Assembly (NCBI GenBank): GCA_943704525.1
Contig: CALSCQ010003075.1
Location: 1-22,566, forward strand
Direction: 5' to 3'
Source: Pigoraptor vietnamica
Lineage: Eukaryota; Opisthokonta; Filasterea
Length of the DNA: 22,566 bases
Part shown: positions 56 to 21,696 of the stretch, piece after piece
Layout: every line of letters starts with the position of its first letter
Position numbering within the stretch: the first letter of the stretch is position 1
Position numbers and translations under genes: made by a program
Notes under the pieces: model-generated
Seen by the model: only the letters and a program-made list of their open reading frames with translations
What the model was told of the DNA's origin: nothing
The model's database searches: none

Positions 56-1112
56 TCAACAACAGCCAACGCGGCAGCGGATATACTGCGTGAAGAACGC
101 AACGGCCTGCGTCGTGCGCCGCGCCCCCACGAGGTAGTCGGCGATGGCGCGCACCAGGTGGTTGTTGAAGGGCGTCGGCTGCATGCCGGGCGCCCCCGTC
201 CCAAGCACGCTCGCCTTGCCAAACAGCGCCGCAGCGGCCGCTAGGAACGTCGCCTCGTCCTTGGGAGTCGGCAGGGGATCGAACAGCCGGAGGCAGTCGA
301 TGTGCACCTGCGCGCGAGGCAGAAGAGGCACGCCGTTAACACACAGCAGGGGGGTGAAACTGAGCCAAGGGTCCCGGCAATTGACGGACGAGTGGACAGG
401 TACCTTGGTCTCGGGTGGAACGGCGAGTGCGCGAAGCACCGCGCTCACACGCAGTTCGGCCCACGCAGCTTCCGTCATTTCGTGCCTGCAACATTTGTGG
501 TCAACGAGGCATTTCAGCAGACCCGCCGTCCGACACTCGAGCAAAGCGCACGGACGCACCTGCGACCAACGCTGTCCACGGCGTATGCGTCGATGCCGCC
601 GGGCATGGCCACCTCAATGCGCACGTCCAGCCGCGAGAACGCGTTGAACGAGCAGTACGTCGTCCGCTGTATCCGCCACCCCTTCGAAGCGGCCTGCCAG
701 AACAAACAAGATGCCCACGTGTGTAAGACACCGCACTTCACCGCACCGCCGACGCAGATCCCGCCAACGCGCACCCACCAGCGCATTCGCAAGCGTGTGC
801 ACATAAGCAGCAATGGACGCCGGTGAAGTCACATCCGCGCCGTAAACGTGGTGGTACGAGCCCATCTCGAGCACCGTGGGGCGGCCAAATGTCGACGACC
901 GCTCGCAGTGCTTGCGCACGTGGCACATGTCGCAGGGGCCGAGTCCATCAAAGCGACCTGAAATCAACGCGAGGCGATCGGGTTAAACCGGTCGTCAAAA
1001 CCCCACCCTCACACACAACGCACGCACCAACAGCCTCTGTCCGCGCGCTCAGGGACTCTCCAAGCGTCGTTTCGACGATTTCCGGTATGTCATGAAAGGC
1101 GCCGTCCGCCAT
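56..1112 (-). CDS. Unrecognised 243-aa protein, five exons
   Basis: Spliced model on the minus strand: exons 1112-1028, 957-779, 693-560, 485-404 and 307-56, stop at 58-56. All junctions are GT-AG and the phases match, giving 243 aa. The ATG at 1112 sits in an AAAATGGC context. I do not recognise the family. Visible features are a Cys/His cluster at about residues 37-46 (CDMCHVRKHC, a possible metal site), a MGSYHHVYG stretch at about 60-68, and a predicted beta-rich middle (FNAFSRLDVRIEV, then PGGIDAYAVDS). The C-terminus is alanine-rich and helical, with a TPR-like look (AIADYLVGARRTTQAVAFF). No signal peptide or membrane segment is evident. It is divergently paired with the zinc-knuckle gene at 1840. 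Consistent phases and absence of stops make the gene likely real; its function is unknown. Confidence 0.7.
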
Positions 1113-1839
1113 TTTTGAGGCCACTGGGAACTACCTAGGCAACTCCTTTCCACTGGCGCTCTCCTCGCTATGAGTACGACAAGAGCCCTCTGCGTCGCCC
1201 AATGCCAAGCACAAAGCGCACCGTCAACAAGTGCTGTGATTGCGGGTTGAGAGGACGGAGGGAGCTCACACGTACAGCGCACACAACATACGCGGTCACA
1301 CAACGGCCTACCCGCGCACTCGCCCCGCGCGGCTCAACATCTTCCGCCGAAAGGCCACCGCAAGGCCATGCGGCCTCTGATCTTCGCAAGGAAAGGCGCA
1401 CACAGGACTCGCGCAGCTGCGTCAATGGCAAGTTCTCAAGCTAGTGGACGTGTTGTCCGCACCGCAATGAGTGCCAAGCCGTGTGCGATGCGCGAGCGAC
1501 CGATGTCCAAGTGGCGTGCGTATGAGAGTGCAATGGAATAGAACCAAGGACGGCACTCCTGGCGCGCAGAGAGGGAGAGGACACAAAGGCACGTGCGAAG
1601 GTGAGGGGAAGGCAGACTCGAGGGGGGATGGGACTCCCTGCGAACACACTTTCAAAGTGCGCGTCACCAACAGCCGAGAGACAGCAAAGCTACTACAGAC
1701 CAGATTTCGGATGTACTGCTTTAGTAGTCGCACACAGCCAGCCGACGCACTCACACACACAAAGCACGTATACACATTACACTCGCGCACAGCCAAACAG
1801 CATCGCATAGGACTCCACTGCTTGCCATACGCTCCGAAA
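1113..1839. promoter_or_regulatory. Divergent intergenic spacer, presumed bidirectional promoter
   Basis: These 727 bp lie between two start codons that point away from each other. I see no convincing coding frame, only short overlapping open frames typical of GC-rich DNA. CA-rich runs occur near 1740-1800, with a weak TATA-like GTATACAC at about 1769-1776. The promoter role is inferred from gene orientation alone. Confidence 0.4.
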
Positions 1840-2469
1840 ATGGCAGGTCGGACGCCTCTCTTGCTTGTCGCGCGCGCTGTCCCGCGGCTGGCGCAACGGC
1901 GACACCTCCACGCCACGGCTGTCCGGTTCGCGGGTGCGTAGCCTCAGCAGGCGTTGCCGTAGTCGCGCTGTTGGACATGTGCGTGCACCGACGCCCTGTG
2001 GCTGTTCTCTGTCCCCTGTTGACGTGCCTTCTGTCGCCAGCATCGCGCCCGGGTGAGACGTCTTCGGCACAGGAAGAGCGCAACCAGTTTCCCATGCTGC
2101 TGCGTCAGCGGTGTTTCTCGTGCGGCACCGTCGGCCACCTCACGTACAACTGCGACAAGGCTGTCCCGTGGAAGAACTGGCGGCCCCGCGCGGACTTTGA
2201 CTCCATCCGCGACGAGTTTAATGCGTGAGTATCACGTGTGGTCGCCCGCATTCGTGTGAGGTCGTCCCGTCTCGCACGCTCGCGATCCAGCTGTACTCCT
2301 GTGTCAGAAAGCATTTCGCTGCTGCCTCGAGTTCCATCTGCACTCGTCGAGTAGTTTTCCTGCGTCTGTGTTCTGCCGGTTTGTCGTGGTTTGCTTTGCT
2401 CATTCGTGTGCATGCAGGCTTCTCGCCAATGTCACCGCCTCCACTGCGCCGCGGCCAGCAGGCCGATAG
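1840..2469 (+). CDS. Small CCHC zinc-knuckle protein, probably mitochondrial
   Basis: Three exons: 1840-1933, 2041-2224 and 2418-2469, stop TAG 2467-2469, giving 109 aa. The second donor (GC|GTGAGT) overlaps an in-frame TGA, so an unspliced reading would end at about residue 92; the spliced version adds LLANVTASTAPRPAGR. Residues 1-30 are rich in Arg, Ala and Leu with no acidic residues, which looks like a mitochondrial targeting presequence. Residues 56-69 form a perfect retroviral-type zinc knuckle: C56-x2-C59-x4-H64-x4-C69. A tryptophan-rich segment (VPWKNWRP, about 73-80) follows. CCHC knuckles usually bind single-stranded nucleic acid, so an organellar RNA-binding or ribosome-associated role is possible, but this is inference. 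Family not recognised. Confidence 0.65.
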
Positions 2470-2684
2470 CGGCGCCGTGCGTTGTTTTATGGCCCAGAGC
2501 GCAGGCCGCTGGGGCACTAAAGCACAACCGCCGCACTCGCACTCAATGTGTTGTCAAAGGCAGCCGCACTGGCGTGGCCTTTTAGTACTCGCAAATATGC
2601 ACGTGCGGTGTGTGCAAGACTGTGGAAGAAAAGCGACATGCGCAGACGCAGACGAAAACGCAATACCGAGGCGGACGCGCGCAA

Positions 2685-4590
2685 TTAGCTGCTTATCGAC
2701 GGCACAGGTGGCAATGGCTCTCCGCCAAACTTGACTGCCCGCGTGGTCCCCGGCGCACCCGGGACTCCGATCGGCGCTGCCACGGCGTCTGTCCGTTGTG
2801 CCGGCCGCCCGCGCGCCTCCGGTGGCTGCGTTACATGTCGTGCGTGTTATTGCAATGTTCACCAAACACTGCCATTGAGCTCAAACGAGTCGCCGTTTTG
2901 CTGACGCACACACAGCACGCACCTTGGCCACAAACGAGACTTCGGGGCCGCGTCGGACTTTGTCGCCCTCGCGAATGGTCACGCCGGGCGCCAATTGGAT
3001 CGACTCGAGCTGCAGTTTGGTGCAATGTTAGATTGTGGGCCTTCAGACTTCGATGGATCAAATCGCCTTCAAAATCAGTGCACCGACACACACAGCACGC
3101 ACATGAACACACACACACACACACACAGCACACGCACATGCACACACGCACACAATGCACGCACGCAGGCAGAATCTACCCACCAAGGACGGCACCATGC
3201 CCCTCTCGTCGACGCGGTCTTGGTACGACGCCGCGCGGTCCGTCAGCGGAAGCGACCGTGCCGCTGCGTCCGCGCCCGCCGGCTGCTGCTGTGACATCAT
3301 CATGCGCCGTCGCGCGCGGGCCGCTTTGATGCGCGCAGCCTCCGTGTCCGCCGCGCTGTCCACGACCGACGCCTTCGTGTGCACACGATACGACGGCAAC
3401 TTCGACGGGTCAAACCGCATCGCGCCCACCACAGTACCCTCGACGACGTCCCTCCGCGCGGGCGGCTGCGGCGCTGCGTGCGACGCAAAGCCCACCGTTG
3501 ACGGCGGCTGCGCCAGCGGCGTGTTCACGTGCGACGGCGGAAGGGGCGCGGCGGGCTTCGCATTCGGCGAGCCCTCGGCCGCCTGCTGCTGCCCGTCGAC
3601 CGATTTGGCCGCTGCGCTAGTCCCAGCGCCCGGGTGGGCCTTGCCCTGTCGCTCCGAAGACGCGCCCTCTTTGGATTTTCGCAGCAGCGCCCCACGTACA
3701 GGCCCCGACCGCTGCGCTGGCGGCGCATCCCGTGGCTTCGTGGTGCGCGACTTCGTGGGACTTGCCACCGCCGGTTCCGCTGCCGCCGCTTCGGGCGCCC
3801 CGTCTTCCGCTGGCGGCGCGGGCGGGTGTTCGTCGTGTGCGGCGGGCTCTGCCGGTGGCACAGTCCCTTCGCTCACAGACACGAGTTGAGCACCAGCCGA
3901 TCCCTTCCCCGCGCGCCCAGCATCCGAGCCCGAGCCTGCACTGTCCCGGTGAGCCCGCGAAATCCCCAACTCTGCCGACGACTGCTGCCGCATTTTCCCA
4001 ACCGTCGACGCCGACGGGCGCACAATCGAACTGCGATGCATTTCGCGCGTCGACGACTGTGATGCCACTGCTGGTGGCGGCGCCTTCTTCACCGGAATCG
4101 CACCTCGGGCCCAGGAATCTATTGTTGCTGGCCGTGGCTCTGCACGTCAAGAGGAACAATCAGGACCGGGGACACAAGCAACGACTGTGCCACATAAAGC
4201 GTCTCCAGCACACCACGACGCGCACCTTCGTCTTCCAGCCACGTCGGGTCGGTGTCCGTGCCGATCTCACCCGGGTCGCGCCGGAGGAACTGCCACTCGA
4301 TGAGCTGCATGATGGCCTTCTTGGCGCGCTTGACCGTGTACGGCAGCAGCTGGCTCTCAATGTACCGCTCGTAAATGACCGACTGGCTGTTGTCAAGGAT
4401 CTGGTCGAGGATGTCGCCCACAATGTTCTCGCAGTCCTCCTGGCCGATAATGGCCGCCCTGCGCAAGCAACCAAACACAAGCATTGGCAACGATGTCTCA
4501 CTAAATGAAGGGACGCCCGTCAAAGCACGTTCTCGCCACGCACCAGTCGGCCGCGCTCACGCGCTGCTGCGGCGGCCCCTCGCTCGCCAT
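2685..4590 (-). CDS. C2orf81-like (DUF4639-type) protein, probably cilium-associated
   Basis: Five exons on the minus strand: 4590-4544, 4458-4226, 4139-3184, 3009-2923 and 2825-2685, stop 2687-2685; 487 aa with consistent phases. Residues about 14-93 contain a block resembling the N-terminal domain of human C2orf81 as I recall it (ENIVGDILDQILD, then PYTVKRAKKAIMQLIEW and RRDPGE, then DPTWLEDE). An immediately following DSWARGAIPV segment spans the exon 2/3 junction. A long, disordered, Ala/Pro/Ser-rich middle follows. Then come a conserved-looking FDPSKLPSYRV motif (about residue 336) and a LAPGVTIREGDKVRRGP motif in exon 4 (about 418-434). These three islands in this order are what identify the family. 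Its biochemical function is not established; the cilium link rests on recalled family distribution. The gene converges with the zinc-knuckle gene and diverges from calcineurin. Confidence 0.8.
3081..3168. repeat. CA/GT microsatellite in an intron
   Basis: An imperfect (CA)n tract, with interspersed CACG and CATG units, fills much of intron 3 (3010-3183) of the C2orf81-like gene. On the sense strand it reads as a GT-rich run directly after the GTGGGT donor. Ordinary simple-sequence expansion is the likely origin. Confidence 0.9.
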
Positions 4591-5288
4591 GGCGGCGAAG
4601 GAGGCGGAGAGCCGACGCGCAATGGTTGCTGCTGACTACGGGGCCGTTGGACCCCGACGCGGCACGCGCCGAGAGAGAGAGAGGCACGCAGGGCCAGAAG
4701 AGCAACAGGGACGACGCAGGAAAGAAGCCCTCTGCAATTCACATTCAAACGGTAAAACGTGCGCGTTCTACTGCATCGCCTTTCCTCTTGAACGAGTTGA
4801 GCTATCCCTGTGTGCCGATCATAGCAACGCCCACCCCGGTTGCAAATCCCGTCGTCACATCCGGGGTAATAACTTAGCAACGAACCCACCTGCGCTGTCT
4901 CCGAATCCGGGGTGCTTCAGAACCCAAAAAAATACGGGCCTCGATTTGAAACGGGCGCAGTAAATAAATGCGGCTGACTATGGGTTGAGTACCGCGGGGG
5001 CGTGCGCAAATAACGCACCCCCTCTGTTGTCTGTGGGTTCCCTCTCCGCTTCCCTCTCCCTCTCTCGCTCTCGTTTTGCTTGCCCTTGCCGCTCTCTCCA
5101 TCCACCTGCGCATTCTACTGCTTTGAACAGACCCGGCCCGCGCGAGCGCAGTAGTGCGTCGCCGCTAGTCGTGTCTTGGTGGATCGGTGCCATTCGTCTC
5201 GATTTTGTATTCAGTCCAAACAGCGGGGGATTGTGGTGTTGTCGCTCGTTGCGCTCAGCCGGTCGAGGGGGTTCTCGTATAAGCAAAG
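4591..5288. promoter_or_regulatory. Divergent spacer between the C2orf81-like gene and calcineurin A
   Basis: These 698 bp separate two outward-facing start codons. The region holds a small AT-rich patch (GTAAATAAATG near 4961-4971) and a pyrimidine tract of CT repeats at about 5038-5078, roughly 200 bp upstream of the calcineurin ATG. No coding frame is supported. Promoter function is inferred from position. Confidence 0.4.
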
Positions 5289-8111
<2,823 letters not shown>

Positions 8112-8478
8112 AGTGTGGGCGCCGCTGCGCCCCGTCCGATGCCTCGCGTTGCCGAAATTAGCGTCCCTTCCCCGCTGCGCTGCGCTCGTTCCCTCTCTCT
8201 TATGCTCGCGTGCTCTCTGTGGTTGTCATTGCGTGACCTGCCGCCGCCGAAGTCGTATGCGGTCGCTGATGTTTGTCGCTGCGGAAATGCGCCTCGCGCG
8301 CCGTTGTGATTCTTAAAAAAAGGTCTTTGTTTGCCTGAGCACTGAGCAGAGCCTGCGTGTACGAATTTTGGGGGCTCAAAATGCGGTGTACTCATGATCG
8401 GGCAAAGTCCCGTCATGCACAAGGAAAGCACTGCGGCGCCGCCTCCAAGACAGGCGCCCCTCGGCCACATGCGCGCAC
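8112..8478. other. Convergent 3' spacer
   Basis: These 367 bp lie between the stop codons of calcineurin A (plus) and the nucleoside hydrolase (minus), so they should hold both 3' UTRs. A short A-run (TTCTTAAAAAAAGG, about 8311-8324) is the only notable feature. I found no canonical AATAAA and no coding signal. Confidence 0.5.
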
Positions 8479-10075
8479 TTAAGGCAGCGTCGCAAAGCGC
8501 TCGCGCAGCAGCGTGCGCACGGCGTCCGCGTTGACCTTCATGAGGATGGACGTCTGCGGCGCCTTGCCGAAGATGCCGTTGAAGTCGGCGACGGTCGTTC
8601 CCGCCGTCAGCAACCCCTCGGTCTCCACGTCGACGTACACGGGCGAGCCCTCGTAGAGGTCTGGGCGGATCATGGCCACAATGGCCGACGAGTCGTGCAC
8701 GGGCATGAAATCGACGCCGACGATGGTGCGGTAGGCGTTGAGGTAGAAGCGCGTCATGTCGTGCACGAGGCGCCCGCACGTGCCGAGCGGCGCAAGGTCC
8801 TCGAGGTAGCCCTGGGTCAGACGCGTCGCCATCGTGACGTCAAGGCCGGCCATGGTGATGTTCCAGCCCGCGCTGAACACGACGTGCGCTGCCGAAGCGG
8901 GAGCGAAAAGATAAGACAATGCGACTGACAGGGGAACAGAATGACTAGGGATGTTACAGAGAGTGAGGTTCGTCGTTTTACGTACCGCCCATCGCGTCGT
9001 TGAAGACATTGGCCTCGCCGAGCGGGTGCACGTTACCTGTGGGTTACAAGTAGGTGCATTGCCTCCTCAGGTTGGCTCTTTGCGATGCACGCGTCGTGCG
9101 AACGCATGCACTCGCACACACGCACTCGCATTCGCCCGAGCAGTTGCACTCACACGCACGCGCACGCACTCGCACTCACACTCAAGCACTCGCACTCGCC
9201 CGCACGCACTCGCACTCACACGTACGCGCAGGCACTCACACGCAAGCACTCGCACTCACACGCACGCGCACGCACTCAGCGCACCCACCGGTCTCCTTGA
9301 TGGTGCCACCCATCATGACAAAGCGGCGCGCAAGCTTCGGCAGGAGCGGCTCGGCCTCCAGTGCCCGCGCAATCGTCGTGAGGGGCGAGAGCGAGACGAG
9401 CGTGATCTGGCCCGGGTGTGCGCGGCACATGCGCACAATGAAGTCGACGCCCGATTCCCCCTGCAAACGCGCGCCCGCGGGCAGCGGCACGTCGACGTTG
9501 CCGAGGCCGTTCATTCCGTGGAACTTGTAGCCGCCATTCTCGACATAGGGGTGAAGCTGCACGTGCGCGGGGAAGTACGAAGTTGGAAACGAATAATAGG
9601 AGCTTAGTGAGCGAGTGCAGCGCGAGTGCGTACCAGGGGGTCGGTGCTGCCGAGGAACACGGGGATGTCCGTGCGGTTGGCCACGCCGAGCACGCGGAGT
9701 GCATTAAGACCCAGCATGGTGACGTTGCCGTTGTTGCCGTAGGTGACGACCACTCCCTCCACGCGAAGCTCGGGAGAGGCGACGGCGAGAAAGAGCGCCA
9801 TTGTGTCTGCAGACATTCAACGCGGTTTAATATAGAGACTTGAAAATTGATCGTATCCTCCCTCTCTCTCTCACCGTCAATGCCGGGGTCTGCCAGGATA
9901 ATAACGCGCTCCGGACGCGCCTCGGATCCACACGCGCCCGTGGTGGCAGCCGCGATGCCACCGCAGAGCGCGAACAGCACAAGCAACAAACCCTGAAGAC
10001 GTGAGGCCACACAAACCGTCAGCACGAGTGCAACCAATGGGTTGCAGTTTGCGCAGCACGTACCTTGCTCGCCAT
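8479..10075 (-). CDS. Inosine/uridine-preferring nucleoside hydrolase, probably secreted
   Basis: Six exons on the minus strand: 10075-10064, 9992-9875, 9806-9634, 9556-9289, 9036-8986 and 8888-8479, stop 8481-8479; 343 aa. The first coding exon is only 12 nt (MASK). It joins in phase to a hydrophobic stretch (GLLLVLFALCGGIAAA, residues 5-20), forming a signal peptide, so the enzyme probably acts outside the cell or in the endomembrane/lysosomal system. The family signature DPGIDD lies at 39-44 (Ca2+-binding aspartates). FVMMGG and a GEANVFNDAM segment follow. Near the C-terminus, PVHDSSA carries the His-Asp pair typical of the family active site. Nucleoside hydrolases split the N-glycosidic bond of ribonucleosides, giving free base and ribose for salvage. 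Substrate preference cannot be read from sequence. Length agrees with the family plus a leader. Confidence 0.93.
9103..9283. repeat. CACTCG/CACTCA/CACGCA minisatellite in nucleoside hydrolase intron 4
   Basis: The central part of the intron between exons 4 and 5 (9037-9288) is made of tandem 6-bp units CACTCR and CACGCR. On the sense (minus) strand this reads as repeated GTGAGTGCGAGTGCGTGC. The intron is therefore packed with matches to the 5' splice consensus downstream of the true GTGGGT donor at 9288. Confidence 0.9.
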
Positions 10076-10452: not shown

Positions 10453-13400
10453 CTACGAAGTGCCGCCGGTGGACGACTTGCGCCTAAAGATGCCCATGAC
10501 GCTCCCCTTCTTCTTCTCCTTGTCCTCCTCCTTCTTCTCCTTCTTCTCCTTCTTCTCCTTCTTGTCCTTCTTGTCCTTCTTCTTCTTTTCGTCCGTCGCG
10601 GGCGAATCGGGCGCAGACGACGGGGTTCCCGTCGGAGTCGCCGCAAAGTCCACCTTCTTCTCGGGCGTCGCCGGGACAGCAGCAGCCGCAGCAGCCGCAG
10701 CAGCCTCCTCCTGCTTGCGCTTCTCTTCCGCCGCAGCCGCCGCAGCAGCCTCCTCCTGCTTGCGCTTCTCTTCCGCCGCAGCCGCCGCAGCAGCCGCAGC
10801 CTCCTCCTGTTTGCGCTTCTCTTCCGCGGCGGCAGCGGCCGCAGCCTCTTCCTGCTTGCGCTGTTCCTCGGCAGCAGCGGCGGCAGCAGCCTCTTCCTGC
10901 TTGCGCTTCTCTTCCGCGGCGGCGGCGGCGGCAGCAGCAGCAGCAGCAGCCTCTTCTTCCAGCTTGCGCTTCTCCTCGGCAGCGGCCGCCTCCGCGGCGA
11001 GACGCTCGGCCTCACGACGCTCGGCTTCCTCGCGCGCCGCACGCTCCGCCTCGGCCGCAGCCGCGGCGAGGGCGGCCTCGTGGGCCTTTCGCTCCGCTTC
11101 CTCCCGCGCAATGCGCTCAGCCTCCGCAGCCGCAGCCGCACGACGCTCGGCCTCCTCCCGCTCGGCCGCCAGGCGCTCTGCCTCGGCACGACGCTCGGCC
11201 GCAGCCTTCTCCGCCGCGCGCTCGGCGGCCTCGCGCTCCTCCTGGGCTCGCTTCTCCTCGGCGATGCGCTTCTGCTCCGCCTGCTGCGCGGCGGCGAGCT
11301 CCTCGGCGTGGCGCTGCTTCTTCTCCTGCACCGACCGCTCGAGCTGCTCCTTGCGCTGGCGCTCGCGATCCGCCTTCTCCTTCTGCGCAGCCTGGCGCGC
11401 GCGCTCCTTGGCAGTCTCCTCCTCGGCCTCGCGCTCGGTCGCGGCCTTGGACCACGCCTCCGATTCCGCGCGACGGCGCTTGTTCTCGTCGTCCGAGAAG
11501 AGCGAGTTGGTGAACGAGCGGTAGTCGTAGGCATTCTCGACGCCGCCTTCCGTGTAGGGCTTCATGTTCTTGAGGCAGAAGCTCGCGAGCTCCGGCGAGA
11601 GCGCCGTGCTGATCTGCGTCTTGGTGACGTACGGCTTGTCGCCCGCAAGGCTGCGGAAGGCCTCCATAATGTCCTCGGGGCGCTCCGCGTTGACCGTCTC
11701 CTTGCTGATCATGAACGCGACGTACTGTTCGCGCGTCACGTGGCCGTCCTTGTGAGGGTCGACCGTCGCGACAATCGCGTCAAAGTCGGCGTCGCCCTGC
11801 TCGCCGGCGGCAAAGTCGTAGCCGAGCGACTTGAGGCAGAGGCGGAACTCCTTGTAGTCGAGCTTGCCCGACTTGTCGCGGTCAAAGTGGTTGAACGAGT
11901 CGTTGTACTCCTTCAGCTGCTCCGCAGAGACGCCGACCGTCTTGCTCGCGCGAATCTGCTGCTCGAGGTTGAAGGCCATGCGCTTCGCCAGCTGCTCCAG
12001 GACGTCCCACTCCTGCGCAAGCGACACGACAGAGTGCTTCGTGTGGCGGTTGTCGAGGACGACGTGCTCCTGCAGCTTGCGGCCAATCTCCTCGAGCCCA
12101 GTCACCGACGAGCGCATCGTCGCAATGTCCTTCTGCGCGGCCTGGACGCCCGCGAGCTGCGCCTCGAGGTCGCCCGACGAGTCCACGAGCGCCGCGCGCG
12201 TCCGCGTGACCCACTGGTAGAAGGCCTCGGCGTGCTCGGCAAAGTTCTTGCGCAGGGCCTCGTTCAGGTCCTGGCGCTCCGCCTCGCGCTTCAGCAGCTC
12301 CTCGCGGTCGCCGCAGAGGCGCTGGACGCTCTTCCACTTCTCCGAGAGTGCCGCGGCCGTGAACGGCGTGTACGGATTCACCGTCACCCCCATCGAGCGG
12401 ATTTCGCCGTCGAGCTGCGAGAGACGCTCCCAGTCCTTGGCCGGCGCGACGAGGCCGTTCTGCTTGTACTGCGCGTGCGCCGCCTGGAGCGACTTGATCT
12501 CGTCAATCGAGTTGACGCGCACAGACTCCGTCAGGTCTTCCTCCGCGCCCTCGGCCCAGTTGTTGAACGCCGACGCGCGCTTGGCAAACTCGAGGAGGAG
12601 GTCCTCCAGGCGCTGCAGCCGCACACGGTTCGCCGACAGCTTCTCCTTCCTGTCGCCGACGGCAGCCACGAGGGCATTCCACTTGGCCACGGCGGCGGCG
12701 GCACGAGCCTCCGCAGCGGCGGGGTCCGAGCAGCCCTCGCGCAGCAGCGTCGCCTTGAGCTCGCCCAGCGTGGCGATGCGCGGCTTGAATGCCTCCACGG
12801 CGGCCGCGAGCTTCTCGTGGGCGCGCTCGTGACCGTCGACGTCGGCGAGGTTGGCGCCGTAGTCCTTCGAAGTGGCCGCGAGCTCCTTGCTGGCAATCCA
12901 CGCCTCAATGGCGTCCACGGCGCGCGAAAAGTTGTGCAGGCGCAGCAGCCCGTCCAGGAACTTGCCGCGCGCCACAGTCGCGGCCTCAAGGGCGGCCACG
13001 CGGTCGACGAGCTGCGCGGAAATCTTGTTGATCGTCTCGGCGCTCGGGTTGGCCTCCGAGATGAGCTTCGAGCCGTTCGAGACGACGTTCTTGACGCGCT
13101 CCTGGCGGCTGGCGTTCTCCGCGACGACCTCGGCGTGCTTCTTCACGAGCACGGCGGCCGTCGACAGGTCGGGGTTGATCACGGTCGAGAGCAGGGCCGT
13201 GCGGTCCACGTGCCAGACGTCCTCCTCATGCGCGTCGGCGGCAAAGCGCTCAAAGTCCAGCGAGTGGTTGAGCCGCGCCGAGCGGGCGCGCGAGGCATCG
13301 GCAAGGGCGTGCCAGCGGTTCTCAAGGGTCGTCGCCGCCGCCTCAATCTCGGCAGCCGCGGGGTGCGCCTGCGAGGCCATCTCGCGCCCGCGCTCGAGCA

Positions 13401-16400
13401 GGGCAATAATGCCCTTCTGGTGGTTGCTCAGCTCGGTCGCAAAGGCCTCCTGGCGCTTGATCATCTTGAGGGCGCCGATGAGGTCCTTGCCGACCTCCTG
13501 CGAGAACGCCTGGGGCTCGCGTTCCTTGATCCACGCCTCCTCGTCCTCGACCTCCTTGGCCCACTCGCGGTGGAGCAGCGCCATGTTGAGGTGCGCGCGG
13601 CGGTTCGTGGCGCGCGCGCGAATCTTGCCGTAGCGCTCCTCCAGCGCCGTCTTCTTGGCACTGATCGTCGCGTCGTCCGTGTTGTGCTCCTTCGCATACT
13701 CGATCATCGCACGGATGAGGTCGTCAATGGGCTGGGCGAGGTTGACCACACGCGCCTCCACGTCCTCGTGACGCTTTAGAAGGCCTTGCACGGCGTAGAG
13801 GTCGCGGCCGACATCCTCCGAGGCAAGGAGCGCCTCGACTTCTCCAAGGCGGAGGAGCAGCGCGTCCGCATTGCGACCAAAGCCCTCCTCGCTGTCAATC
13901 TCGTGCAGCTTCTTGCCCTTCTCGTCCGCCTTGGCGCGGAGGGCGTCCCACTGCGCCGCAATCGCCGTGAGGCGCGCCTTGACGTCGGGGGCGGCAAAGT
14001 GATTGCCCTCGACGAGCGCCTGCCCGCTCGACATGAGCTTCGCGATGCGGGGCTTGCCGGCCTCGAGCTCACCGACAAAGGCGTTGTGGTGGATGATCCG
14101 GTCCGTGATCGGCTCACCGCCCGCATGGGGGTCCTCCGCGGCAATCTTGTAGCAGTCGTCCATCCACCCGGCAATGTCTTCGGCGTCGCGCTTGAACGCC
14201 TGCAGCTTGCGAGCCTCGTCCAGGCGCGCCTGGCGCTTCGCGAGAAGGCCGTCGAGCGCACGCCAGCGAGCGATAATGGCGCTGCGGCGCGCGTCAATCG
14301 CCTCCGCGTCGGGGTTGCCCGCCGACACGAGGGACGTGGCGTACTGGTCGAGCTTCTTGACGTTCCCGGCATTCGCGGCAATGGTACCGGCGACGGCCTC
14401 GTGCGCCTTGATCAGGACGTCGACCGCCTCCATGCTGTCGCCGATCGCCTCGCTCATCAGAGTCGCCTCGACGTCCGACAGGAAGTCCTCGACGACCTCG
14501 GCGTCGCGGCCAAAGCGGAAAAACTCGAGAGACGCCTCGAGGCGCTTCTGGCGAGCGTCCCACGCACCGCCCAGCTTCTGCCGGTCGGCCTTGAACGCCG
14601 TCAGCTTCGTCTGAACCTCGTTGCCAAGGGGCCTGTCCTTCAGGCGCGTCGCGAGGACTTCGCCCGTCGCCACGAGCTTGTCAAAGGCATCGCCGCGCCC
14701 GTCAATGTCGGCCTTCTGCTTGGCGTGACGGCGCAGCAGCTGCTCCGCTCCCGTGAGCGTCTGGGCGACTTCGTCCGACGAGACGAGGCCGTGGCGGTCG
14801 GCGATCCAGATCGAGGCGTGGTGGAGGTTGCTGAGGAACCGGAAGACGTCCGTAGAGTCCTCGAGGGCCTTCTTGCGCTCCTCGAGCCGCTTCGTCACGT
14901 TCTCCAGGGCAATGCTCACTGCCGCAATGGCGCGCGCGAGGTCGTCCGAGTGGTCGGGGTACGAGTCCGAGAGAATGCAGCCGTCCTCCATCATGTCGGC
15001 AACCTTCGCAGAGATGGCGTCAATCTCGCTCGCCGTCGCGTTGACCTTGCGCTGCAGCGCTTCCGCCGTGGCGAGGTCGTGGCCCTCGTCCGTGCTCGAG
15101 AGCGCCGTCATCTTCTCGTCAATGCGACGCTGCACGTCGGCGACCTCGCGGAGGAAGCGGCTCGCCTCGTCCGCGCTGCCAATCTGGGCGCCGTTCTGCG
15201 CGACGATCGTCTGCAGCGTGTTCCACTTCTTGTCGATGATGCGCTGGCGCTCCTTGATCTCCTCAGAGTCGGGATGGTTGTCGGAGACGAGGCGCTCGGC
15301 AATCTTGCCGACCTCCAGGATGCGCGCCTCGTTCGCGGCCATGTCGCGCTCAATCTCCGCCATCTTCTCGCGAATCGAGTCGATGGTGGCAAGGTCGGCC
15401 TGCGACGCCTCCGCCGAGCTGGCAACCGCATACCGGTCATCAAGCCACGCCTCAACGTCCGTCGCCTTCGTGCTGTACCCGAACATCTGCACGCTCGCCT
15501 CCAGCGCGGCGCGGCGCTTCTTCGCGGCCGCCTTGATCGACTCGTACAGCGCGGCAAGCTCGCCGTGGCGCTGCACAACCTCGGTGCCGGCGTACGTCTG
15601 AATCTGCGCGGCGCGTTCGCCAAGCTGCTTGAGGTTGCCCCCGTAGGCATTGAGCTCCGCCTCGAGCGCGTCATTGCGCTTCAGCAGAGCAATGGCAGAG
15701 GCAGCGTCGCGGCCATAGTCGTCGCTGTTGGCCATGGCGTGGCGCTCACGCAGCCAGGCGTCGGCGTCGTCGGCGTCCGACGTGAACCGCTGAGCCGTCG
15801 ACACCTCGAGCAGCTTGGCTCCACGCGCACGGTTGCGGTTGCGCAGTTCCTCCCAGCGCTTCAGAAGGCCGTCCCGGCGGGCATTGATATCCTGCGACTC
15901 GTAGTGGCCGGCACCGACGAGGGCCTTGCCGGCGTCGGCAGTCCGCATGACAGACTTCTCGTGGGACGTCAGCTCCGCCTCAAACGCCTCGTTGCGCTTG
16001 ATGAGCCGCTGGGCCGCGATGAGGTCCTTGCCAAAGTCGGACGAGAGCGCCTGGCTCTCGTTGTCGCGAATCCAGGCCTCGTCGCTCTCGCAGTCGCGGC
16101 AAAACTCGCGGAACTTGTGCGCGTCCTTCAGCTTGTTGGCGCGCGCCGCGAGCGCAGACTTGAGCTCCTGGTAGTCCGCCTCGACCTTCAGGCGCTTCGC
16201 GTCGACGGCCTGGGCGTCCGCGCCGTGCTCGCCCTTCTTCAGCTCGTCGCCGCGAGGCTTCAGCGCGGTAATCTGCTCACCGCGAGACGCGACCTCCGAC
16301 TCGAGGAGGCGGTGCTCCTCGATGAGTTCCTCCACCGACGCAACATCGTTGCCCCACTCCGAGGTCTTGAGAACGTCGTGCGTCGAGCGAATCCAGGAGA

Positions 16401-18104
16401 CAATGTCGTCGCAGTCGGCAAAGTAGCGCTGCGCCGTGTACATGCGCATGAGCGCCTCACGGCGCGCGGCAAGGGCCTTGAGAAGGTTGCTCCAGCGAGC
16501 CGAGATCTCGTCGGCGCGGGCCTTGATAGGGTCCACGCCGTGGTACTTCTCCGCGGCGAGCTCGTCGGCAACAGCGAGTACCGCAATGATGCCGTCCTCG
16601 TGCGACGACACGTCCGAGGCAATAGCCTCGTGCTTCTTGGTCGCGGCCTCGATCGACGCAATGTCATGCGCGACCGTCTGCTGCGCAACGAGCTGCTCGG
16701 CATCGGCGAGCCAGGACGTGCGCAGGGTGGCCTTCTTCGCAAAGCGCGCGGCGAGCTGCTCCAGGCGCTCCTGGCGCTCGAGCTCCTCGCGCAGCGCAAT
16801 CTCGCGGTCGGCCTCAGCCGTCTCGAGGCGCTTCCACGCGCGATTGACGTCCGAAATGAGCTTGCCGGCGGGTGGGTGGTACATGGGGCGGTTGCGGCTG
16901 CGCAGGCGAGTCTGCAGGTTGAAGAACTGCGACTCGAGATTGCCCTTGTCGCCGTACTTGGGCGGCTTCTCGACCGTGCGGAACTTCTGGAAGTCGCCCA
17001 TCGACGTCTTGAGGCCCGCGAGCGTGTTGGGAAAGTCGCGGCTGTCGAGGCGCTCCGTGCTGGCCTTGATCCACGCCATGAGGTCCGAGGCGAGGTCCTC
17101 GTAGTCCTTGATCATCTTCTCAATCTCGGCGGCGAACCCGACGACGTTTCCGATGCGCTTGTTGCCGACGTCCGCCTCCTTCATGTTCGCAAAGTAGTGG
17201 TAGTACGCCGCAATGTACGTCATGATCGAGCGCTCGTCGGGACGCTCCGCATCGACAATGTCCTCAGCGTCGAGCAGCTTGTGAATGCCGAGCTGCTTCT
17301 CCGCGACGTCAAACGCATTGTTGAGGTTGTTCAGCTCGTCCGACTTCTTCAGACCGTCAAAGTCGATCAGGTCGGGGCGGTGCTTGTGGATCAGCGCGTT
17401 GAAGGCAAGCCCGTCCTTGAAACTGCGGCTGAAATCCTGCACGTTCACGCCGGGGTACCCCGCCGTCTTGCGCTGGCACCAAAGCAGGAGCGCCTCCTTC
17501 GCAGAGAGGTCCTCGACGCTGATGTCCTGAATCTGGAAGCGGAGAATGATCGTCCAGATGAGACCGAGCGTGAGCTTCTCGTTGCCGTCGACAATATCCT
17601 CCGTGCCGATGTTCGTGAAGTGGACCTTCGTCTGGAGGTACTTGAGGGCGGCGCCCACGTTGCCGATCTTGTGAAAGCGCATCTGTCCACGCTCGGGCCG
17701 CTGGAGCTGCGAAGGCAGACGCACGAGCCGGGACTCAGTCTGCTGCCCACAAAGTCCATAAAACAAAATGCAAGAGGCAGTGTGCGCGCACTCACCGTCT
17801 CTCCAGAGATCAGCTGAAGGAGCTTGAGCAGCTTGACGCCGTCGCGGAGGTCCTTGTTGAGGTCATCGACGTGGTCGTCCACTGCGGCAGCCACAAAAAG
17901 GATCAGGGACAACAAACTCCATAACGCATGCAGGAGCCATGGAATTGAGGAAAGAAGTCCAAGTGCAAGGACAGCGGAAGCAAAGGGGACCGAGGCAACG
18001 GCCGGCGTACCCTTCACGAGGTGCGAGTTGATCCATTTCGTAAAAGTCTTCTTCTGAATTCCGGTACGCTCGGCGCCGAGCTCTCCAATACGCTTGTCCG
18101 CCAT
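10453..18104 (-). CDS. Giant alpha-actinin/spectrin-like actin crosslinker (CH-CH, 16 spectrin repeats, EF-hands, charged helical tail)
   Basis: Three exons: 18104-18011, 17881-17796 and 17742-10453; 2,489 aa. Two calponin-homology domains form an actin-binding head (CH1 about 15-135 with WINSHL and DLNKDLRDGVKLL; CH2 about 140-250 with KEALLLWCQRKTAGYPGVNV). About 16 spectrin repeats follow (about 265-2000). The first two and last two resemble the four rod repeats of alpha-actinin; the twelve between look spectrin-like (AWIRDNESQALSSDFGKDL style). The calmodulin-like domain has a canonical EF-hand at 2014-2025 (DRDKSGKLDYKE) and a degenerate second one at 2055-2066 that ends in Gln. After about 2145 comes an unusual Ala/Glu/Arg-rich helix, six EEKRKQEE-polyAla units (about 2315-2415), a Lys/Glu-rich stretch and a basic end containing RRKSS. 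It likely crosslinks cortical actin. The acceptor at 17742 could instead be 17739, one residue shorter. Confidence 0.93.
10506..10590 (-). repeat. Lys/Glu-Asp coding microsatellite
   Basis: Tandem CTTCTTCTC and CTTCTTGTC units on the plus strand encode repeated KKE and KKD triplets near the C-terminus of the spectrin-like protein. The result is a highly charged segment just before the final basic tail. Confidence 0.9.
10675..10980 (-). repeat. Coding tandem repeat: six EEKRKQEE-polyAla units
   Basis: Six in-frame units of about 45-57 bp encode EEKRKxEE followed by 7 to 12 alanines in the tail of the spectrin-like protein. The core is nearly invariant (one EEQRKQEE, one EEKRKLEEE) while the alanine runs vary in length, the pattern expected of recent unit duplication and slippage. 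Confidence 0.9.
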
Positions 18105-19768: not shown

Positions 19769-19946
19769 GTCCTCCTGACTAAGTGGTGAGAGAAGGCGCG
19801 TACTTACAAAGCTACCGTGGCGCGACGGTCCGTGCCAAATAAACCGAAGCACGTGCGCCACCGCAGCACGCCCTTCGACGAGCACAAGCCCTTTCTAATC
19901 AATTTCTGTCCAAGCGTGAAGTGAATGGCGAGCGCAATGGCTTCGT

Positions 19947-20509
19947 TCATGGCCGACGAGATTCCCGCGCCTGATACTCGGCGTTGGCTTTCCCGTTGTG
20001 TGCGGGCGATGTTTTGAGTGCGATGAAGGGAGAAATGCGCCGGAAGGGACCGGCACGGCCGTGATTGACGGCAGTGACGACGAATCGGTAACACGAGAGA
20101 CGACGAAGTGGCTGGACCGGCAATCGTCAGTTAAAAGCCGTGTACCAAAATGATGACGCGCAATGTCGAATTCGGCGCTTTCGGGCCGGCAAGTACGGGC
20201 GTGTCTCGGTCGTTGAAAGTGTTTGCTTTCACCTGGGAATACAGGAATGTGACTAGTCTGTGAACGGAGGTGGCCCCAATCACGACAACTGAAGCTAAAA
20301 GCACGTTCGAGCCTAGACGCTCGAGCTCCGAAGCACGCCCGAACTCGGTCGCCCAATTCAAGTCGCACCTTCGAAGGTAGCAAGCGGCGTACCTGCTGAT
20401 AGGTGCTGCCTGCCCGTAAGCAGCATGGACTCAGTACAACCGGAATGTTTGTGGCACTAAATTTAGGTTCACAACTTACGATCATTTGAGCCACCATGCT
20501 CGGCATCAT
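19947..20509 (-). CDS. Small single-pass membrane protein of unknown function
   Basis: Three-exon model on the minus strand: 20509-20480, 20409-20233 and 20111-19947, stop 19949-19947; 123 aa. The first intron has a consensus GTAAGT donor; the second uses GTGAAA and ends in a GTCCAG acceptor preceded by TTTTAACTGAC, a good branch-point match. A hydrophobic helix lies at about residues 38-61 (SNVLLASVVVIGATSVHRLVTFLY). It is preceded by an amphipathic, charged stretch (TEFGRASELERLG) and followed by a basic C-terminus. I do not recognise the family. If intron 2 were retained, the protein would instead end at an in-frame stop near 20131. The gene lies 302 bp downstream of PEX4 on the same strand and converges with the TMX-like gene. 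The model is plausible but rests only on phase and splice signals. Confidence 0.45.
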
Positions 20510-20811
20510 TGGTGAGCGCGACTGACTACAGTAGTGCCCGACGCGGATCGGTATCAGTCAGCGAGGCAGGCCGGATTGCGGGCAAACCGGGACTGGCTGT
20601 CGAGTGGCGGCGCTTCCTGCGGAACTGCCTGAGAGACCGCCCAGACAGTAAACGTATCCACAATATTCAGTCCTCTCACCCGTGCGAAGCCGACTTACAC
20701 TCGGACTTGAGACAGCTGTATCAGTCGGCTTTTGGCGGGTGTATCTTTCGCGGACACTGCTGCGCCAATCGGTCGGTGCCTCATCAACAGCGTTTATGAG
20801 ACCCCTGTCAT
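20510..20811. other. Spacer between PEX4 and the small membrane protein gene
   Basis: These 302 bp lie between tandem minus-strand genes. A plus-strand open frame crosses most of the spacer, but it shows no recognisable domain or splice structure and I regard it as chance. No promoter motif stands out. Confidence 0.4.
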
Positions 20812-21696
20812 TCATTCCTTTGGAATCGCATAGAGCTTCGTGAACATGCGCACCAGCGACCGATATCCCCTGTCGTCCCCGCATCGAAGAAGGTTGCCTG
20901 GAAGCACGACAATTCGTTAGGACTTCCGGTCGCAAACAAACTACGGTGGAAAGAACATCACGCTGCGAAAACACACAAGGACTTCCAGTCACAAACGAGC
21001 CACGACGAAGAGAATATCACGCTGCGAAAACGCACAAGGACTTCCGGTCACAAACAAGAAAGACGAAGAGGACATCACCGCTGCGAAAACACACCAGCAT
21101 CACAATTTAGCGGGCTGTCGACCTCCGGATTGTCAAGCAGCACAATGAGCGCCAGGCACGTTGATCGCAACGTCCACGCGGGGCTCCACGTCGTCTTGAG
21201 AATGTCGAGGCAGATTTCGCCCGTCTGCACGCACAGTCACAAGCAGTCGTGTAAACATCGATTCGCAACTCAACAACGCACGACGGACAGCTGTACACGG
21301 AGGCCTACACGCACCTTGAAGTGAATGTTGGGGTGGCAAATTTTGGTGACAAAGGTCATTTTGGGTGGCCGAATGGGATAGTCATTCGGGACGGCAATCT
21401 TCACCTCGAACGTCCCCCCTGTCGCGATGTATGGCGCAGAAAACTCAGCAAAAAACTCTGACGAAGACGCTTCGAAAATGCTTCGAACACGGGAGTGAAC
21501 ACAGAAAGGCAACGCGCAATAATAAACGGAGCGACCCCTATTAATACGCACCCTGGTAGAGTGACGGCGCGGGAGGCTGCAGGCGCGCCGTCCACATCAG
21601 AATGTTGTCCTCATTGGGCTCGAGCGTGAACTCGGCCGCGGGCGTCTTGCGCAACTCCGCAAGCTCCTTTAAGAGCCGCCGCTCCACCGACGCCAT
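20812..21696 (-). CDS. PEX4: Peroxisomal ubiquitin-conjugating enzyme E2 (PEX4)
   Basis: Four exons: 21696-21552, 21418-21315, 21224-21095 and 20897-20812, stop 814-812 of the 20 kb block; 154 aa. PEX4 is the E2 that monoubiquitinates the import receptor PEX5 on a cysteine so it can be recycled from the peroxisome membrane. The UBC fold is complete: LYQGGTFEVKIAVPNDYPIRPP, then HPN at 77-79 and the catalytic Cys88 in TGEICLDILK. The segment SPAWTL followed by PEVDSPLNCDAGNLLRCGD strongly resembles plant PEX4 and distinguishes it from cytosolic E2s. The exon 2 acceptor was chosen at 21419 because it restores the canonical YQGGTF strand; an upstream acceptor would insert about 13 unexplained residues. 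The start at 21696 is the first ATG in frame. Its PEX22 anchor is not visible here. Confidence 0.92.
20919..21095 (-). repeat. Three 59-bp tandem units filling PEX4 intron 3
   Basis: Units begin at 20919, 20978 and 21037 (marked by AGGACTTCC), a constant 59-bp period. Each contains, on the sense strand, GTGYGTTTTCGCAG (21094-21081, 21035-21022, 20976-20963), which holds both a donor-like and an acceptor-like hexamer. The first unit directly abuts exon 3 and supplies the real GTGTGT donor. The divergent third unit (20919-20977) is the one closest to exon 4. Confidence 0.92.

Follow-up and report, generated by a model that had tools for sequence, protein, structure and literature searches.

Spectrin is a central component of the membrane skeleton in animals, and the existence of two chains has so far been explained by an imagined two-ended ancestor. 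Alpha-spectrin has 20 repeats with an SH3 domain, carries EF hands after its last two repeats and has no CH pair, whereas beta-spectrin has a CH pair, a partial repeat 17 and a PH domain. Alpha-actinin unites a CH pair, four repeats and a calmodulin-like domain in a single chain. Single chains with a CH pair, numerous spectrin repeats and EF hands are also known from dystrophin, which carries WW and ZZ domains, and from the spectraplakins. Here, we describe a gene in a window of 22,566 nucleotides from the filasterean Pigoraptor vietnamica (the whole of contig CALSCQ010003075.1, assembly GCA_943704525.1, which is the stretch of DNA that was analyzed). This gene, at 10453..18104 on the minus strand, encodes 2,477 residues in which a CH pair, 16 spectrin repeats and EF hands form one polypeptide, and its interior repeats are in register with both spectrin chains. 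Judging from sequence comparisons, we consider it probable that this gene is an unsplit spectrin, most likely one that retains the condition ancestral to alpha- and beta-spectrin.

An ancestral CH-repeats-EF spectrin that later split into alpha and beta chains is proposed in PMC9145010, which names GAS2 and plakin domains as spectraplakin features, reports both spectrin chains in two choanoflagellates, records spectrin outside the opisthokonts only in one plant, and mentions Capsaspora twice, never with spectrin. PMC4550062 places the origin of spectrin near choanoflagellates and describes alpha-actinin as pairing antiparallel. PMC5042518 deals with an alpha-actinin of Capsaspora, which suggests that this species likewise carries a separate alpha-actinin. 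Sequenced filastereans include Ministeria and two Pigoraptor species, according to PMC9492541. Spectrin appears just in a reference in PMC10959527 and PMC9170242, and the passages obtained from PMC4265756, PMC13245172, PMC11271494 and PMC12599920 concern other matters.

Gene structure and domain order

The gene model comprises three exons (all feature coordinates below are on the minus strand of the window). Exon 1 (18011..18104) holds the start codon and the beginning of the first CH domain, exon 2 (17796..17881) continues this domain, and exon 3 (10453..17706) encodes the remainder of the protein in frame; the two introns between them (17882..18010 and 17707..17795) are both GT-AG. The start codon and splices are supported by P0024, a protein of Capsaspora owczarzaki: its N terminus aligns without a gap to the product of exons 1 and 2 and the first part of exon 3, with 47 of 70 residues identical. 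Pfam searches of exon 3 detected Spectrin in 16 stretches (E value, 1.1e-225), CH in 2 stretches (2e-38), EFhand_Ca_insen (3.4e-19), and further EF-hand families. The part of CH domain 1 within exon 3 lies at 17533..17694 (PF00307 positions 57-108) and is followed by CH domain 2 at 17188..17505 (E, 1.8e-30). Repeats 1 and 2, which by Spectrin profile and nearest neighbor are beta1-like and beta2-like, occupy 16786..17109 and 16450..16752; repeats 3 to 14, which the register tests described below align as a set with beta3-14 and alpha7-18, occupy 12634..16434; and repeats 15 (alpha19-like) and 16 (alpha20-like) occupy 12289..12600 and 11959..12249. The rod leads into an EF-hand pair (11710..11907) and a Ca-insensitive EF hand (PF08726; 11497..11688; E, 4.2e-19). 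Judged by eye, the first EF loop is canonical, and the second is degenerate here and fuller in Capsaspora. The joining of a CH pair, a spectrin-length rod, and an EF domain in one polypeptide, as read in an initial annotation of the sequence, is confirmed by the gene model and Pfam; its estimate of about 16 repeats can be made exact, as a genome search returned 16 nonoverlapping Spectrin matches in the gene, 16/16 above the Pfam cut-off.

The pitch of the repeats is 103 to 108 residues in 12 of 15 cases, with longer values for repeats 1 (120), 14 (114), and 15 (115). In spectrins, represented by one species for each chain, beta1 of Antedon has a pitch of 120 residues, and alpha18 and alpha19 of Latimeria have pitches of 115 and 114; the window protein and these spectrins share a long pitch in their end repeats. 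The protein ends in an A/E/K/R-rich tail of 342 residues (10453..11481), and a charged tail is also found in P0024 and in a second relative, P0026. The tail of the window protein consists of near-repetitive units such as EEKRKQEEAAAAAAA, ends in a basic stretch, and probably forms a long charged helix; the initial annotation did not mention it. Its last 20 residues are similar to those of P0026 (2/5,000 shuffles) and not to those of Capsaspora (1,135/5,000), whereas the corresponding values for the last 36 residues are 273/5,000 and 1,434/5,000. As a conserved motif, the basic tail end is only a lead.

At an E value of 0.01, the Pfam matches of exon 3 include no SH3, PH, WW, ZZ, GAS2, or plakin domain. 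The gene is not a dystrophin or a spectraplakin, since WW, ZZ, GAS2, and plakin domains are missing from these exon 3 matches and the EF region matches PF08726. With beta-spectrin it shares the CH pair, the type of repeats 1 and 2, and the rod register, but 16 full repeats run directly into EF hands, with neither a partial repeat 17 nor a PH domain. With alpha-spectrin it shares the EF hands after two last repeats of alpha type and the rod register, at an offset of 4, but has 16 repeats instead of 20, no SH3 domain, and a CH pair at its N end. The overall plan of a single chain is that of alpha-actinin, and an antiparallel homodimer is predicted by analogy and from the end repeats; however, 16 repeats with a spectrin-type interior, rather than 4, set it apart from that family. 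With a long rod of repeats of about 106 residues in register with alpha and beta chains, the protein is a spectrin in the broad sense.

Proteins of like architecture

Relatives were sought in three protein-database searches, each of which scored approximately 8,000 candidates sharing most words with the query. Exon 3 matched 557 proteins at an E value of 1e-20, and among the best 120, CH, Spectrin, and PF08726 occur together in 2: P0024 (CAOG_08407; 2,704 residues) and P0026 (2,616 residues, starting inside CH1). An alignment of the three proteins matched 4,868 proteins at 1e-50, led by P0024 and P0026 at 4,859 and 4,806 bits, scores that are inflated because both belong to the profile; the next-best match reached 2,672 bits, and PF08726 was in none of the other 118 among the matches listed. 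Residues 1660-2100 gave 114 listed matches, of which 112 have Spectrin and PF08726 without CH and are alpha-spectrin-like. The two with CH, P0233 (1,531 residues) and P0234 (1,544 residues), belong to alpha-actinin and show 8 to 10 repeat pieces, the number varying with the threshold; R1-R5, R2-R6, and R3-R7 match between them, and their rods apparently grew by duplicating a four-repeat unit. Unsplit relatives may escape such searches, because the matches to residues 1660-2100 left out P0024 and P0026.

Like the window protein, P0024 and P0026 have CH domains, 16 in-register repeats, an EF pair, a Ca-insensitive EF hand, and a long charged tail. They are 38% and 37% identical to it over the alignment, and they differ in the pitch of repeats 2 and 3 (106 and 107 residues in the window protein, 113 and 112 in P0024, and 113 and 111 in P0026) and in having longer tails. 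CAOG_08407 is deposited as a hypothetical protein, and its UniRef label starts with "Spectrin beta chain." The initial annotation had named close orthologues already described with this architecture as evidence that would speak against it: the architecture is indeed deposited, and no description of it was found in the papers covered. A literature search, to which subscription journals were mostly outside the scope, found no description of a living unsplit spectrin in the article portions it covered. In those portions, the ancestor is already postulated, and a living unsplit form, including the deposited Capsaspora protein, is described nowhere.

Rod repeats in register with both spectrin chains

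To compare rods (W for the window protein, C for Capsaspora P0024, and M for P0026), repeats were cut with a single hidden Markov model made from the window's repeats, which yielded 16 repeats each in W, C, and M, besides charged-tail pieces at a looser threshold. All repeat pairs were scored, the matrix was double-centered, and the mean of each diagonal was judged against 20,000 permutations. The test was confined to interior repeats 3 to 14, which kept the actinin-like ends from driving the result. Against ten alpha-spectrins, W peaked at an offset of +4 (W_i with alpha_i+4; z score, 7.1; 0/20,000), with the in-register repeat ranked top in 6/12 cases and first or second in 11/12. Against eleven beta-spectrins, the peak lay at offset 0 (W_i with beta_i; z, 5.9; 0/20,000; top-ranked in 5/12), and among offsets -3 to +7 no other offset reached a z of 0.1 for either chain. 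On-diagonal peaks were obtained against C (z, 6.7; top-ranked in 8/12) and M (z, 5.6; top-ranked in 7/12), both of which yield the same two offsets against alpha and beta as W does. A phmmer comparison with the erythrocyte spectrin chains of 8iah gave co-linear blocks that agree with these offsets (in exon 3 numbering, alpha 22-730 with W 605-1314, alpha 697-988 with W 433-723, alpha 1053-2416 with W 710-2071, beta 101-1387 with W 2-1269, and beta 1400-2069 with W 434-1110). The many-repeat alpha-actinin P0233, the sole permutation control, showed no register with either chain (largest z, 1.41), with less power, as it offers 7 interior pieces against 12 in the window protein.

Repeats 1 and 2 are 48% and 42% identical to their beta counterparts, and repeats 15 and 16 are each 47% identical to their alpha counterparts. 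Mean identity within W3-W14 is 23.7%, a value exceeded by the in-register identity to Latimeria alpha at 11/12 positions and to Antedon beta at 10/12. When the 16 repeats of the window protein were pooled with those of Capsaspora, one alpha-spectrin, and one beta-spectrin, 14/16 had their nearest neighbor outside the protein itself; R4 and R12 are nearest to each other. On the strength of these nearest neighbors and of the many-repeat alpha-actinin control, we reject a lineage-specific repeat expansion, for which the initial annotation had expected the repeats to cluster with one another.

The same annotation typed the first repeat as that of an alpha-actinin, whereas repeats 1 and 2 match beta-spectrin 1 and 2 best. 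It further left a choice between descent from the ancestor of both spectrin chains and an alpha-actinin whose rod was lengthened between R2 and R3 by an insert of about 12 repeats. The ends of the protein are indeed related to alpha-actinin 1sjj (416 and 233 bits), but an insertion is unsupported by the interior, which is in position-specific register with both spectrin chains, whose in-register identities mostly lie above the mean within W3-W14, and whose nearest neighbors are mostly outside the protein; genuine expansions, as in P0233 and P0234, also look different. We regard an enlarged alpha-actinin as very improbable. The first option, descent from the common ancestor, is supported by the repeat register, subject to the possibility of fusion that is weighed below.

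Phylogeny of the two ends and the possibility of fusion

Trees were built from hand-picked rows for the N end (CH domains to repeat 2; 17 rows) and the C end (repeats 15 and 16 and EF hands; 15 rows), with an alpha set without a choanoflagellate or sponge row. With all outgroups, the actinins were split from spectrins plus unsplit proteins with support of 99/96 at the N end and 97/97 at the C end, which again argues against an enlarged alpha-actinin. However, when the two long-branched alpha-actinins P0233 and P0234 were left out, placing W with the two remaining actinins was not rejected by the approximately unbiased (AU) test (p-AU, 0.29 and 0.32), a point in favor of that reading, and the order at the base of the tree is accordingly unsure. 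With the same outgroups, the unsplit proteins fell outside an alpha-spectrin clade of 8 animal or other rows (99/99) and outside a beta-spectrin clade of 10 rows, including Dysidea and two EukProt rows taken for choanoflagellates (95/94).

These positions bear on a secondary fusion, in which a beta CH end would have recombined onto an alpha EF end and both parent chains would then have been lost. Such an event would give what is seen at the ends, where W1-2 are nearest to beta and W15-16 to alpha. When the long-branch outgroups P0233 and P0234 are left out, support for the N-end position outside beta drops to 77/74, with alpha staying at 99/99, and one tree of an internal block of repeats joins the window's long branch to beta rows (83/89). 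However, both ends lie outside their respective clades when all outgroups are used, and W4-W14 reveal no change from beta-like to alpha-like repeats: scored in register, alpha lies above beta at 11/11 positions (by 1 point at W12), and in Capsaspora it does so at 10/11 (not at position 6), so that a break would have to fall around repeat 3. The missing switch carries little weight, since alpha is apparently the slower-evolving chain. Moreover, alpha-actinin, the outgroup, also combines CH domains, repeats, and EF hands in an unsplit chain, and the unsplit state is accordingly the older one. On balance, a fusion appears unlikely, and we favor ancestry.

The eight-repeat period

Offsets eight repeats away from the two registers are also strong, with z scores of 5.3 for W-alpha at -4 (0/20,000) and 5.0 for W-beta at +8 (6/20,000); values are lower for W-alpha at +12 (z, 1.7; 708/20,000) and W-beta at -8 (z, 0.9). 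The chains themselves repeat this pattern, as alpha_j aligns with both beta_(j+4) (z, 7.0) and beta_(j-4) (z, 5.7), both at 0/20,000, and the former register spans 13 positions in animal spectrins. Self-matches at an offset of 8 scored 29/5,000 for alpha, 0/5,000 for beta, and 44/5,000 for the unsplit set. Alpha1 departs from a simple scheme in that it resembles class 10 and not class 5. Older work on intragenic duplication in spectrin reportedly may already describe an eight-repeat period. The order of events is left unsettled by block trees for positions 6-8 and 6-9, in both of which all four groupings are possible (p-AU, 0.09 to 0.41); duplication of an eight-repeat block may have come before or after the alpha/beta split, either order being compatible with these trees.

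It could be argued that the true ancestor was an unsplit chain of 24 repeats, of which the 16-repeat form described here is a shortened descendant. The shared period and the alignment of alpha_j with beta_(j+4) are as this would predict, but alpha_j matches beta_(j-4) too, and W6-W11 are about equally near both alpha copies, which also fits divergence before the duplication. With the event order open in the block trees, we think a 24-repeat ancestor improbable. A tentative and rather doubtful proposal is that the window gene preserves a 16-repeat spectrin from before the split and that the animal chains arose in two steps. Repeats 4-11 would first have been duplicated in tandem, producing a 24-repeat unsplit chain, and two gene copies would then have been truncated in complementary fashion. 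The beta copy would have retained the CH domains, repeats 1-11, and a portion of the second block, breaking off within a repeat; the alpha copy would have retained a portion of the first block together with the second block and the EF end, its first repeat being broken. From these two incomplete repeats the head-to-head joint would have formed, and the reversible tetramer would be a by-product of losing the two-ended homodimer.

A predicted two-ended homodimer

A single chain here joins the CH pair and repeats 1-2 of the beta side with the last repeats and EF-hand domain of the alpha side. By analogy with alpha-actinin and with alpha-beta spectrin, identical chains would pair laterally and antiparallel, repeat i with repeat 17-i. 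In animal spectrin, beta_i pairs with alpha_(21-i); because W_i is the counterpart of beta_i toward the N end and of alpha_(i+4) toward the C end, the proposed homodimer would reproduce the spectrin pairing. At each end of the rod, the CH pair of one chain would sit beside the EF-hand domain of the other, which would allow actin to be bound at two ends. The homodimer would be a long flexible cortical cross-linker of actin, about 80 nm in length if each repeat adds about 5 nm. The animal alpha-beta dimer has a single actin end and is two-ended only after head-to-head joining, and the split would for that reason have made a reversible joint necessary. Attachment to the membrane via the tail stays a guess, because the last residues of the tail resemble those of P0026 and not those of Capsaspora.

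Several observations weigh against an ancestral unsplit spectrin of this kind, in addition to the drop in beta clade support without the long outgroups. The register is imperfect, with W3 at rank 6 for both chains and, for beta, W9 and W13 likewise at rank 6 and W11 at rank 4. In the trees without those outgroups, the three unsplit proteins group with support of only 72/63 at the N end and do not group in the optimal C-end tree, although their grouping is not rejected there (p-AU, 0.235). Of 200 bootstrap replicates of the block trees, just 2% and 16% unite the three unsplit rows, and W sits on a long branch. The net charges of the paired repeats i and 17-i show no clear complementarity. Finally, an exon-by-exon search of the genome, which found no other long spectrin gene, might overlook a divergent one.

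Genomic background

The searched genome comprises 32.5 Mb in 1,395 contigs, with the window as contig C1275. Spectrin matches number 19 genome-wide: the 16 in the window gene, 2 on C284, and a weak one below the cut-off on C647. C284 also has CH domains and a Ca-insensitive EF hand, and tblastn finds CH-side and EF-side repeats there with introns between them. Since CH domains, both repeat types, and the EF hand co-occur on this contig, it carries a separate alpha-actinin, and the long chain and an alpha-actinin are present in the same genome. In a 10,000-base stretch of C647, tblastn with the window protein found nothing at an E value of 1e-3. Within the window, ten chosen open frames outside the gene (144 to 344 residues, at 144-10037 and 19898-20992) had no Pfam match at an E value of 0.01.

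Other families were matched in the same genome. T-box matches lie on C844, C791, C1344, C123, C1365, and C854, a single Runt-domain match lies on C739, and integrin beta matches lie on C661, C928, and C829. With Capsaspora as the closest named relative, the T-box, Runt, and integrin beta matches point to a filasterean, a single-celled relative of animals. A kinase family of tyrosine-kinase-like type has 177 matches, which say little because the family also matches 9/14 prokaryote controls. For ZU5 (ankyrin), the genome search gave no match, and its control matched nowhere either, so that absence is not established.

Implications for the spectrin family

An automatically assigned name, "Spectrin beta chain" for example, can mask an unsplit form. 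As an outgroup, the unsplit spectrin may be used to read the eight-repeat history of the alpha and beta chains. With an unsplit chain in a living genome that also has a normal alpha-actinin, the ancestor becomes testable at the bench, which raises the questions of whether such a chain forms a two-ended homodimer, how long that homodimer is, and what splitting bought the animal spectrins.

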